DNA of 64,000 bases. Origin: Bacteroides fragilis. Lineage in GTDB: Bacteria; Bacteroidota; Bacteroidia; Bacteroidales; DTGW01. Below are positions 2,915-56,108 of this stretch, piece by piece. The stretch lies in the NCBI GenBank assembly GCA_945889005.1, contig CAMDBI010000002.1, forward strand, positions 1 through 64,000. The letters run 5' to 3'. The translations under genes were made by a program, and so were the position numbers. Each line of letters starts with the position of its first letter. Positions within the stretch are counted from its first letter, which is position 1. Below the pieces are notes generated by a model that saw only the letters and a program-made list of their open reading frames with translations, did no database searches and was not told the DNA's origin.

Positions 2915-2957
2915 CATTAGTAATTAGTAATTTGTCATTAGTAATTTATTTGTCATA
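2915..2957 (-). repeat. Heptanucleotide array, family B (TTAGTAA/TTAGTCA), running into ispD
   Basis: Degenerate repeats of TTAGTAA, TTTGTCA and related words, the reverse complement of the ACTAATTACTAATGA arrays seen after stop codons elsewhere. It occupies the place where the ispD start codon is expected. Confidence 0.8.
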
Positions 2958-3617
2958 ATAGTTGCCGGGGGTAGGGGTTTGCGAATGGGAACCGAAACTC
3001 CCAAGCAGTTTCTCGAAATTGCCGGTATTCCTGTGCTTATGCACACCATCAATGCATTCAAAGCATTCGACTCCAATAGCGAGATAATTATTCCTATGCC
3101 CGACTCTCATATCGATTTTTGGGAAAAACTTTGTTTAAAACACTCATTCAACGTAAAACACAAAGTCGTAATTGGCGGAGAAACCCGTTTTCATTCGGTT
3201 TTGAATGGACTAAATGCCATAAAAGCCTCAGAAGGCATTGTTGCGGTGCACGATGCTGTTCGACCATTGGTTTCGCAGCAAACCATTAAAAACAGTTTCG
3301 ATTTGGCAAACAAAAAAGGAAATGCTGTTCCGGTTATTGAAATGACCGATTCTGTAAGAATAATTGATGGGTTAAATTCGGAAATTATTGACAGGGATAA
3401 ACTTAGAAGAATTCAAACACCCCAAATGTTTGAATTAAACCTTTTGAGAGAAGCTTATCGACAAACATTCAACGAATCATTTACCGACGATGCTTCGGTA
3501 GTTGAAGCACTAGGATTTATTATTAATATGTGCCTAGGCAATGCCGAAAACATTAAAATAACTAATAAAAGCGACTTACTGATTGCCGAAGCTCTTATAA
3601 ATTCTATTGCTCGGTAA
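2937..3617 (+). CDS. ispD: 2-C-methyl-D-erythritol 4-phosphate cytidylyltransferase, start codon unclear
   Basis: IspD of the non-mevalonate isoprenoid pathway; forms CDP-ME from CTP and MEP. Seen: PKQF after the nucleotide loop, VHDAVRPLVS, RRIQTPQMFE and FTDDASVVEA, all family hallmarks. The first conventional start is TTG at 2979, but that would delete the essential CTP-binding loop, because the frame upstream reads FVIIVAGGRGLRMG, exactly the expected N-terminus. Between the in-frame TAA at 2928-2930 and 2979 there is no ATG, GTG or TTG; the best sized start is ATT at 2937 (ATA at 2955 or 2958 also possible). A repeat array overlies this region. The 3' end overlaps the convergent neighbour by 14 bases. 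Function sure, start doubtful. Confidence 0.9.
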   Translation: MSNLFVIIVAGGRGLRMGTETPKQFLEIAGIPVLMHTINAFKAFDSNSEIIIPMPDSHIDFWEKLCLKHSFNVKHKVVIGGETRFHSVLNGLNAIKASEGIVAVHDAVRPLVSQQTIKNSFDLANKKGNAVPVIEMTDSVRIIDGLNSEIIDRDKLRRIQTPQMFELNLLREAYRQTFNESFTDDASVVEALGFIINMCLGNAENIKITNKSDLLIAEALINSIAR

Positions 3618-16250: not shown

Positions 16251-16410
16251 GTGAGCTGTGGACAGTGGACAGTGGACAGTGGACAGTGGACAGTGAGGCG
16301 TGGATCGTGAGTCGTGGGTCGTAGACTTTAGATTTTACACGAAACACTGTCGAAGGTTCACAATTCACGAATCACGGTTCACGGTCAACGGTTCACTAAT
16401 TAAGGTTCAC
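16251..16410. repeat. Family A array with inverted halves between lipA and lipB
   Basis: 16251-16327 holds eleven units of GTGGACA/GTGGATC type in phase; 16355-16396 holds six units of GGTTCAC type, the complement, with one more at 16404-16410. The lipA stop TGA lies inside that last GTGAACC word. The halves could fold into a long imperfect hairpin. Confidence 0.85.
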
Positions 16411-33802: not shown

Positions 33803-33942
33803 GTGGACAGTGAATCGTGAACCGTGGACAGTGGACAGTGAACAGTGGACAGTGAACCGTGAACCGTGAACAGTGGACAGTGGACAGTGGACAGTGGACA
33901 GTGGACAGTGGACAGTGAATCGTGGATCGTGAACTGTGATGG
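33803..33942 (+). repeat. Family A heptamer array, 20 units
   Basis: Twenty consecutive 7-mers without a phase slip: ten GTGGACA, three GTGAACC, two GTGAACA, two GTGAATC, and single GTGGATC, GTGAACT, GTGATGG. Starts four bases after the aspartokinase stop. Units vary only at positions 4, 6 and 7 except the last one. Confidence 0.92.
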
Positions 33943-44163: not shown

Positions 44164-44233
44164 TCATTTGTAATTTGTAATTTGTCATTAGTAATTGTTC
44201 GATGTCCTCAACCATCAACCATCAACCATCAAC
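44164..44233. repeat. Family B array, then CATCAAC heptamers inside the ygiQ start
   Basis: 44168-44195 holds TTTGTAA/TTTGTCATTAGTAATT words, start-side orientation. 44206-44233 is CCTCAAC followed by three CATCAAC in phase, within codons 2-11 of ygiQ; the words resemble GATCAAC and TATCAAC at the end of the family A array at 54899-54912. Confidence 0.75.
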
Positions 44234-46049
44234 CAAGCGCCATTTTCTTCCTACTTCTGCCAAAGAAGTAAAAGAACGTGGTTGGGATAGTTGCGATGTG
44301 ATTCTTTTCTCGGGCGATGCCTATATCGATCATCCTTCGTTTGGTATTGCTGTGGTGGGTCGTTTGCTCGAGAAGCTGGGATTGAAAGTTGCCATTGTGG
44401 CGCAGCCCAACTGGCGTGACGATTTACGCGATTTCAAGAAGTTGGGAAAACCCAATCTTTTTTTCGGTGTTTCGGGCGGGAACATGGATTCGATGGTGAA
44501 CCATTACACAGCCAATAAGCGTTTGCGCAGCGACGATGCCTACACCTCAGGTGGTAAAGCAGGTTATAGACCCGATTATGCTGTTACTACTTACACACGA
44601 ATACTTAAAAAATTGTACCCCGATGTGCCTGTTGTCTTGGGTGGGATAGAAGCTTCGTTACGAAGGCTTTGTCATTACGATTACTGGAGCGATACTCTAA
44701 TGCCTTCAATACTCGTCGAATCGGGGGCTGACTTGTTGTTGTATGGAATGTCCGAAAAAACGCTGAAGGAACTGGTTGTTTTGCTTCAAATTGGTGCGAC
44801 ATTTGGCGCCATTACCAACTTGCGACAGTCGGTTTATATACTCAACAAAGGTCAACGTTTGTGGGAAACCAATGAGTATGAAACGATACATCTGAATAGT
44901 TTCGAGAAGTGTAAAAAAGATAAACGAGACTATGCTCACAATTTCAAGGTATTCGAAGTCGAATCGAACAAAATGAAGGCTGCACGTTTGGTAGAGGCTT
45001 CGGGCGATAAATTGGTGATTGTCAATCCACCTTTCCCATCGCTTACACAGGAAGAAATTGATGAAATATACGATTTGCCTTATACACGTTTGCCGCATCC
45101 ACGTTACAATGGCAAAGGCGATATTCCGGCTTTTGAAATGATCAAAAATTCTATTAATACACATCGAGGATGCTTTGGAGGTTGTGCTTTTTGTACTATT
45201 TCGGCACACCAGGGCAAGTTTGTGCAAAGTAGGTCGGAGGCATCTGTGCTTAAGGAAGTTGAGGCACTTGCAAATACTCCATATTTCAATGGTACTGTTA
45301 GCGATTTAGGTGGTCCGTCGGCCAATATGTACAAAATGAAAGGCCGTAACCTGGCTGCTTGCGAAATGTGTACACGCCCATCGTGTATTCATCCCGATGT
45401 TTGCCCAAACCTCAATACAGACCATGCTCCTATGACAGAGCTACTCAAAAAAGCATCGGATATTAAAGGTGTTAAAAACTTATATGTAGGCAGCGGAATT
45501 CGTTACGATTTAATATATGGCGCTCGCAACGATGCATACAAGAAGTCGGGTGTCGAATATCTGAAGCAAATAGTGACAAAACACGTGTCGGGTCGCTTGA
45601 AAGTTGCGCCGGAACATACTTCCGACAATGTGCTAAATTTAATGCGCAAGCCTTCGTTCGATATGTTCAAAAAAATGAAGTTCGATTTTGACCGTATAAA
45701 CCGTGAAAATGGGAAAAATCAACAGTTAATACCCTATTTTATCTCGAGCCACCCCGGTTCGGGACTTGCCGATATGGCCGATATTGCTATTCAAACCAAG
45801 CAGCTTGGCTATAAGCTCGAGCAGGTACAGGATTTTACGCCTACTCCAATGACCTTGGCTACTACCATTTATTATACTGGAATAGATCCTTATACCAGTA
45901 AAAAGATTTCTTCGCCCAAAACCATAGAGGAAAAACGTCAACAACAAAGTTTTTTCTTTTGGTACAAGCCCGAAATGCGACAAGCTATTAAAAATCTGTT
46001 GCAAAAAATGGGACGAAGCGATTTGTTGGGGCGATTGTTTTCGAGGTAG
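44202..46049 (+). CDS. ygiQ: YgiQ-family radical SAM protein
   Basis: 615 residues. N-terminal B12-binding-like domain (FLPTSAKEVKERGWDSCDV, VVLGGIEASLRRLCHYDYW), radical SAM CFGGCAFCTIS around 324-331, further Cys motif CEMCTRPSCIHPDVC, and C-terminal UPF0313 tail (FFFWYKPEMRQAIKNLL). Function of the family is unsettled. The first dozen residues come from heptamer repeats; homologues begin at about FLPTS. Confidence 0.93.
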   Translation: MSSTINHQPSTKRHFLPTSAKEVKERGWDSCDVILFSGDAYIDHPSFGIAVVGRLLEKLGLKVAIVAQPNWRDDLRDFKKLGKPNLFFGVSGGNMDSMVNHYTANKRLRSDDAYTSGGKAGYRPDYAVTTYTRILKKLYPDVPVVLGGIEASLRRLCHYDYWSDTLMPSILVESGADLLLYGMSEKTLKELVVLLQIGATFGAITNLRQSVYILNKGQRLWETNEYETIHLNSFEKCKKDKRDYAHNFKVFEVESNKMKAARLVEASGDKLVIVNPPFPSLTQEEIDEIYDLPYTRLPHPRYNGKGDIPAFEMIKNSINTHRGCFGGCAFCTISAHQGKFVQSRSEASVLKEVEALANTPYFNGTVSDLGGPSANMYKMKGRNLAACEMCTRPSCIHPDVCPNLNTDHAPMTELLKKASDIKGVKNLYVGSGIRYDLIYGARNDAYKKSGVEYLKQIVTKHVSGRLKVAPEHTSDNVLNLMRKPSFDMFKKMKFDFDRINRENGKNQQLIPYFISSHPGSGLADMADIAIQTKQLGYKLEQVQDFTPTPMTLATTIYYTGIDPYTSKKISSPKTIEEKRQQQSFFFWYKPEMRQAIKNLLQKMGRSDLLGRLFSR

Positions 46050-54592: not shown

Positions 54593-54705
54593 CAATGTCG
54601 TTTAGTGAAGAAATATCAACTTTTTAATTACCACTAAAGGGGACTTCATTATCACCCCTTTAGGGGATGGGGGTAAAAAAGAAGAATGTTAACTAAACGA
54701 CATTG
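54593..54705. mobile_element. Short element with 14-bp inverted termini inside a repeat array
   Basis: CAATGTCGTTTAGT (54593-54606) and its exact complement (54692-54705). Inside lies CCCCTTTAGGGG and a second CTAAAGGGG, further palindromes. AATTACTAAT occurs directly on both sides, so the element splits the family B array. 113 bp, non-coding. Confidence 0.65.
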
Positions 54706-54765
54706 AATTACTAATGTAAAAATTACAAACCATAAGCTGACCACTTCTCATTTACTCCGGTCTAC

Positions 54766-54912
54766 TGTTCACGGTTCACAGTTCACAGTCCACAGTCCAC
54801 AGTCCACGGTTCACGGTTCACAGTTCACAGTCCACGGTTCACAGTCCACGGTTCACGGTTCACGGTTCACGGTTCACGGTTCACTGTCCACGGTTCACGA
54901 TCAACTATCAAC
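54766..54912 (-). repeat. Family A heptamer array, 21 units, before prfB
   Basis: Twenty-one consecutive 7-mers in phase: mostly GGTTCAC and AGTCCAC, with TGTTCAC, AGTTCAC, TGTCCAC, and finally GATCAAC and TATCAAC. Reverse complement of the arrays after fcl and the aspartokinase. Ends eight bases before the prfB promoter box. The rest of the 377-base gap holds the family B array and the inserted element. Confidence 0.92.
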
Positions 54913-54920
54913 TTTTTTCC

Positions 54921-56040: not shown

Positions 56041-56108
56041 TAAAGTTGAAAGTTAAAAAGTTGAAAGTAAGAAGGTATTAATTTTTAATTTTTAATTTTT
56101 AATTGTCA
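56041..56108. repeat. Family E and AATTAAA heptamers between prfB and sprA
   Basis: After the prfB stop: AAAGTTG, AAAGTTA, A, AAAGTTG, AAAGTAA. After the sprA stop on the other strand: AATTAAA-type words of 7-nt period, four copies. Both are stop-side arrays of convergent genes. Confidence 0.7.

Follow-up and report, generated by a model that had tools for sequence, protein, structure and literature searches.

The window, the whole stretch of 64,000 nucleotides that was analyzed, encodes ispD downstream of fcl, with two arrays of heptamer repeats at the facing edges of these genes. The features of the locus are:

1745-2839, + strand: upstream gene fcl, GDP-L-fucose synthase-like (NCBIfam NF047922, 436 bits, below the cut-off of 500)
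2838-2889, + strand: family A heptamer array (AGTGGAC, 7.4 copies; TRF), its left end on the edge of fcl
2916-2946, + strand: family B heptamer array, ATTAGTA ATTAGTA ATTTGTC ATTAGTA ATT (TRF), over the ispD start site
2928-2930, + strand: in-frame stop TAA, the upstream bound of the ispD frame (window sequence)
2931-3617, + strand: ispD open frame, 228 codons, stop at 3615-3617 (NF001186, 298 bits; TIGR00453, 207 bits; single copy)
2937-2939, + strand: ATT, best candidate start, 9 codons before the A of AGG (position, context, strand beta-1 whole)
2940-2942, + strand: AGT at position -8, where the closest relative by family and most other relatives carry ATG (alignment)
2955-2960, + strand: ATA ATA, alternative near-cognate starts, 2955 lying at the distance that separates other arrays from their ATG
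2961-2990, + strand: CTP-binding loop VAGGRGLRMG (sequence, invariant residues), where TTG 2979 and ATG 2985 are the earliest canonical codons

Read from 2931, the ispD frame runs TTT GTC ATT AGT AAT TTA TTT GTC ATA ATA GTT GCC GGG GGT AGG GGT TTG CGA ATG. The original prediction had stated that the gene lacks a conventional start and that its nucleotide loop is encoded upstream of the only TTG start. Both statements hold: the window sequence has no ATG, GTG or TTG in this frame between the TAA at 2928 and the TTG at 2979, and that TTG falls inside the CTP-binding loop. Because the coding sequence for VAGGRGLRMG lies 5' of TTG 2979 or spans it, a protein begun at 2979 or 2985 would lack the loop; both codons were ruled out by this loss, by their context and by RNA folding. 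An ATG at 2909, ahead of the family B array, was considered as a start displaced by an insertion and rejected, being out of frame and followed by a TAG stop after three codons.

The frame scores above the cut-offs of both IspD models, NF001186 (298.3 bits against 253) and TIGR00453 (207 bits against 181.3). Solved IspDs are among the relatives of its product, which keeps every residue invariant in the alignment (G12, G14, R16, K23, D106, R109, R153 and T161, among others). A canonical start before the loop is absent from the window ispD but is no defining feature of the IspD enzyme family, so the assignment stands. A second ispD, which the original prediction asked to have checked, was not found in the genome (3.26 Mb, 99.4% complete, a 62-contig draft), leaving one copy only. 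The same genome encodes dxr (465 bits), and the search of it for HMG-CoA reductase found none, ruling out a mevalonate route that would make IspD dispensable. From established knowledge of the pathway, IspD should be essential in a genome with dxr and without HMG-CoA reductase. The window ispD looks like a working gene and not a relic.

Heptamer arrays at gene edges

The family B array covers the place where relatives start ispD, in line with the earlier reading that family B words lie over the start site; its last, degenerate unit may extend to 2950. The family A array begins at 2838, within the fcl stop codon (TAG, 2837-2839). Runs of period 7 number 12 in the window compared with one in ten shuffles altogether. 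Other arrays of this period lie at 16258-16322, 33803-33939, 44166-44235, 54764-54913 and 56078-56104, with units GTGGACA, GTTCACG, TCAACCA and TTAATTT. Across the genome, the family B 17-mer ATTAGTAATTAGTAATT has 228 matches with up to 2 mismatches, the reversed control 6; for the family A word GTGGACA the numbers are 51 and 0.

To place the arrays relative to genes, we analyzed stretches of about 3 kb around the array hits; the genome holds at least 60 family B arrays. Read in the orientation ATTAGTA, the right ends of 48 of 60 lie within 12 nt of the edge of the next gene. Sliding each array at random within its own intergenic interval gives an expectation of 12.0, and the observed count was reached in none of 2000 such shuffles. 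Left ends are near a gene edge in only 4 of the 60. Family A is the mirror image: in 19 of 42 arrays a gene edge is no more than 12 nt from the left end (6.2 expected). The family B arrays mostly end short of the start codon, and the distance from the last AATT to the ATG of a co-directional gene is mostly 5-9 nt (13 of 26 cases). In convergent genes the array is placed on the stop codon. One family B array adjoins a putative tRNA gene (GGCTCTGTAGTTCAATGGATAGAACG...) and no protein gene (L090 ~1531, G000:C1 ~114720). A MITE-like element, about 110-120 bp long and bounded by the inverted ends CAATGTCGTTTAGTTAA and TTAACTAAACGACATTG, is present at 54593-54705 of the window and at about 20 other places in the genome, often directly beside a family B array; at L132 it seems to lie inside one.

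Arrays also run into the ends of other genes. About 11 convergent genes end in the array-coded tails QLLMTNY, LLMTND, LLITND or ITNY. As these residues are the array read backwards, the native 3' end of each gene appears to have been overwritten, with the stop codon supplied by the array. Because a convergently oriented array offers stop codons in every frame, any open frame reaching it must end there; the informative point for these genes is the near absence of arrays at a greater distance downstream. The same family B placement was found in another genus of the family (G001), again with a QLLMTNDK tail, and two genomes from other families (G067 and G088) have arrays at stop codons. Convergent genes with ends such as QLLMTNY or LLMTND are found at L070, L071, L132, L135, L150, L159 and L242; by eye, those at L070 and L071 resemble cell-wall genes.

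In two further genes a TTG start lies directly at the end of a family B array, as if the last T of the array had replaced the A of an ATG. They are ruvB (L067, G000:C1 ~107990) and an AglZ/HisF2-like gene (L158, G000:C45 ~1870). We considered an excess of non-ATG starts beside arrays, but the two TTGs and ispD among about 22 genes are not above the rate of TTG and GTG in the IspD survey described below (18 of 98) and are not counted as evidence.

Start sites of ispD in relatives and candidate codons in the window

We surveyed the starts of 98 IspD genes from related genomes and a GTDB scan. ATG begins 75 of them, GTG 9 and TTG 9, nearly always 7-11 codons ahead of the AGG loop and in relatives at least 7. 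Only the window ispD and one other gene (L039) lack any canonical codon from the upstream stop to the loop. Among 30 further IspD loci, two of them repeats of earlier ones, the 29 readable starts are all canonical and one start was not resolved. The near-cognate start is therefore not conserved in the orthologs: about 125 IspD genes use ATG, GTG or TTG, and an ATT at the start site is otherwise seen only at L039. A general use of odd starts by ispD in the Bacteroidota was ruled out (2 of about 125). The L039 gene is from a Crocinitomicaceae MAG (JABURP010000032.1, 600-640) and reads TAA TTT TCT ATT CAA CGA AGT GTT ATC ATA; an ATT occupies the normal start site, and there is neither a canonical alternative after the upstream TAA nor a repeat array. 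A class-wide search found no close relative of it (best match 54% identity). In another ispD frame, L239 (G073:C427), the closest ATG is 87 codons upstream and the frame carries a K/N-rich extension of low complexity, which makes its start uncertain.

The closest relative by family, G001, belongs to a different genus. Its ispD begins ATG AAG CTT TTT GTT ATC ATT GTT (M K L F V I I V), where the window reads ATT AGT AAT TTA TTT GTC ATA ATA GTT (I S N L F V I I V). With the window AGT aligned to the G001 ATG, the match begins at codon -6. At position -8, the ancestral site of the ATG, the window carries an AGT that lies within an array word.

We compared the candidate starts by position, context, folding and structure. 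ATT 2937 precedes the loop by 9 codons, a distance within that seen in relatives, compared with 3 codons for ATA 2955 and 2 for ATA 2958. Scored with a matrix built from 88 ATG starts of the same genome, ATT 2937 is at the 30th percentile of ATG starts, ATA 2955 at the 22nd, ATA 2958 at the 8th, and TTG 2979 and ATG 2985 at the 0th. The upstream context of ATT 2937 has no A at -3 or -6. The highest score of all candidates belongs to TTG 2932 in frame +1 (62nd percentile). Predicted RNA folding from -35 to +35 is -8.3 kcal/mol for 2937 and -19.6 kcal/mol for both 2979 and 2985. An AlphaFold2 model of the ATT-start protein has a mean pLDDT of 94.5 and places strand beta-1 at residues 4-9, so a start at AUA 2955 would remove the first half of this strand (residues 4-6). 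The array-to-ATG spacing seen elsewhere favors 2955 and not 2937. From this comparison AUU 2937 is the best candidate, as originally proposed: no other near-cognate codon lies at a plausible distance, its upstream context is normal, and it leaves beta-1 whole. That it is actually used we infer from position, context and structure.

Explanations for the missing start codon

Our preferred explanation, to which we give a probability of roughly 55%, is that the family B array, in overrunning the 5' end of the gene, took the place of the ispD ATG, and that an in-frame AUU of the array now acts as a weak start. A polar array of this family, normally ending a few bases before the gene, would have extended about 1-4 codons into ispD. 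The overrun would have replaced the ATG, located about 8 codons before the AGG loop in relatives, or merged with it through a shared AATT. The array's own AUU at 2937, the codon just before the lost start, would then serve as the initiation codon for a product fMet-SNLFVIIVAGGRGLRMG... The predicted N-terminus is Met-SNLFVIIVAGGR from AUU 2937 and Met-IVAGGR from AUA 2955. The array at ispD is most likely the 5' counterpart of the overruns at 3' gene ends. Low expression of ispD and sensitivity to IF3, like that of infC, are reasonable predictions from such a start. At ispD itself, replacement of the ATG, use of the AUU, low expression and control by IF3 are what we infer.

Several other explanations were weighed against this one. 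The start could be intact in the organism and hidden by an assembly or consensus error or a strain mixture, through one more heptamer, another net +1 change, or a base difference leaving an ATG. We regard this as unlikely, though the main competitor. The start region is tandemly repeated DNA in a draft of 62 contigs, frame +1 carries TTGs at 2893, 2932 and 2950, and the other array-adjacent genes examined retain ATG or TTG. Since 7 is 1 mod 3, a single extra heptamer after 2932 would bring UUG 2932 into frame (UUG UCA UUA GUA AUU AGU AAU UUA UUU GUC...). However, the arrays are short (31-52 bp) with unique flanks, the decisive bases (TTTGTCATAATAG) lie outside the array proper, and many other gene ends are overrun alike, which cannot all be errors. 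Translation from AUA 2955, or from 2958, with the product MIVAGGRGLRMG..., appears improbable. AUA 2955 does lie 8 nt after the last AATT, the distance at which half of the co-directional ATGs are found (5-9 nt; 13 of 26), its context is at the 22nd percentile, and AUA starts are known from ccpN and infC of S. aureus (PMC13009471). Against it, only 3 codons would precede the AGG loop compared with at least 7 in relatives, residues 4-6 of beta-1 would be lost, and the codons just upstream, TTA TTT GTC, equal the LFV of G001.

Ribosomes that start in frame +1, at UUG 2932 or UUG 2950, would take advantage of the best context among the candidates, that of TTG 2932, and of a frame that ends TTG TCA TAA, overlapping ATA 2955. 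Such a start would have to be followed by a -1 frameshift before UAA 2956 or by reinitiation at the overlapping AUA; two unusual events are required, and a search by eye for a slippery motif or stimulator found none, making this route very unlikely. That ispD is a dying pseudogene, the enzyme coming from another source, has the absence of a canonical start as the sole point in its favor. We consider it extremely improbable given a single copy, an encoded dxr and no HMG-CoA reductase, together with 228 open codons and all invariant residues kept. A broader extension of the array overrun is that heptamer arrays rewrite gene edges throughout the genome in this clade, at stops and, at ispD, at a start, with ispD tunable by slippage and coupled to IF3. 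With every heptamer moving the frame by one, the number of units at ispD would then set whether a UUG or only the AUU is available as a start. We consider this extension doubtful and speculative.

An overrun array with an AUU start would have several consequences. Gene callers that accept only ATG, GTG and TTG would truncate or miss an essential ispD. Should use of the AUU be confirmed, ispD would be a case of an essential enzyme gene that tolerates displacement of its start codon by an array, and of near-cognate initiation keeping a gene alive after such damage. The arrays at and inside gene edges, with the array-coded C-terminal tails, offer natural cases for array spread and for the tolerance of gene ends.

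Comparison with known non-canonical starts and heptamer repeats

The original prediction had named infC as the bacterial precedent for an ATT or ATA start; it is not the only one. E. coli pcnB starts at AUU, as cited in PMC13009471, the same paper describing an AUU start for S. aureus cvfC1 and an AUA start for ccpN, and Streptomyces sigR starts at GTC (PMC5472188). The S. aureus AUU and AUA starts give about 10% of the AUG level in poor medium (PMC13009471). A non-canonical start of infC is itself known (PMC5472188), and the infC of this genome fits: of the 209 codons in its open frame, the first 45, which extend to the conserved KINNEIRAKQVRLVGDN segment at the IF3 N-terminus, include no ATG, GTG or TTG. 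That gene (L238, G000:C22:41724-42227, minus strand) probably starts at ATT or ATA.

Like infC and pcnB of E. coli (both AUU), cvfC1 and ccpN of S. aureus, and sigR of Streptomyces, the window ispD has a conserved N-terminus without a preceding ATG, GTG or TTG and a near-cognate codon at the right distance, and weak, IF3-sensitive initiation is predicted for it. In contrast to those starts, which are conserved and regulatory, the ispD start is not conserved and seems to have been lost to an array. The S. aureus cases also depend on extended Shine-Dalgarno motifs, which the Bacteroidota lack; their leaders are A-rich and weakly structured rather than relying on Shine-Dalgarno pairing (PMC6847099). 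We found no description in the literature examined of the ATTAGTA family, of its extent here, or of a start lost to an array in an essential enzyme gene. Non-canonical starts and gene-edge heptamers have both been described separately; the two together on the gene of an essential enzyme appear to be new.

Heptamer direct repeats of the TAACTGA type are known from Beggiatoaceae, cyanobacteria and some Bacteroidetes (PMC4679880), and GGGAATC heptamers from Xanthomonas and GGGGATT from Nostoc (PMC4692102). The ATTAGTA-type arrays share the features of such polar gene-edge heptamers, being 7-bp direct repeats in many intergenic regions placed near starts and stops. Similar to the TAACTGA repeats, they are intergenic and polar and lie mostly a few nucleotides before starts, some overlapping the ends of open frames and some lying towards stops. 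They differ in the unit, in having about equal numbers of arrays at convergent stops and at starts, and in that one appears to take a start codon. Like GGGAATC and GGGGATT, they are heptameric, intergenic and polar to the neighboring open frames, some overlapping stop codons. Those repeats are G-rich and quadruplex-forming, whereas the ATTAGTA-type unit is A+T-rich. Direct comparison shows that neither TAACTGA nor GGGAATC can be turned into ATT[AT]GT[AC] by rotation or reverse complementation. The ATTAGTA arrays are therefore assigned to the kind of the polar gene-edge heptamers, and to neither of these two families.
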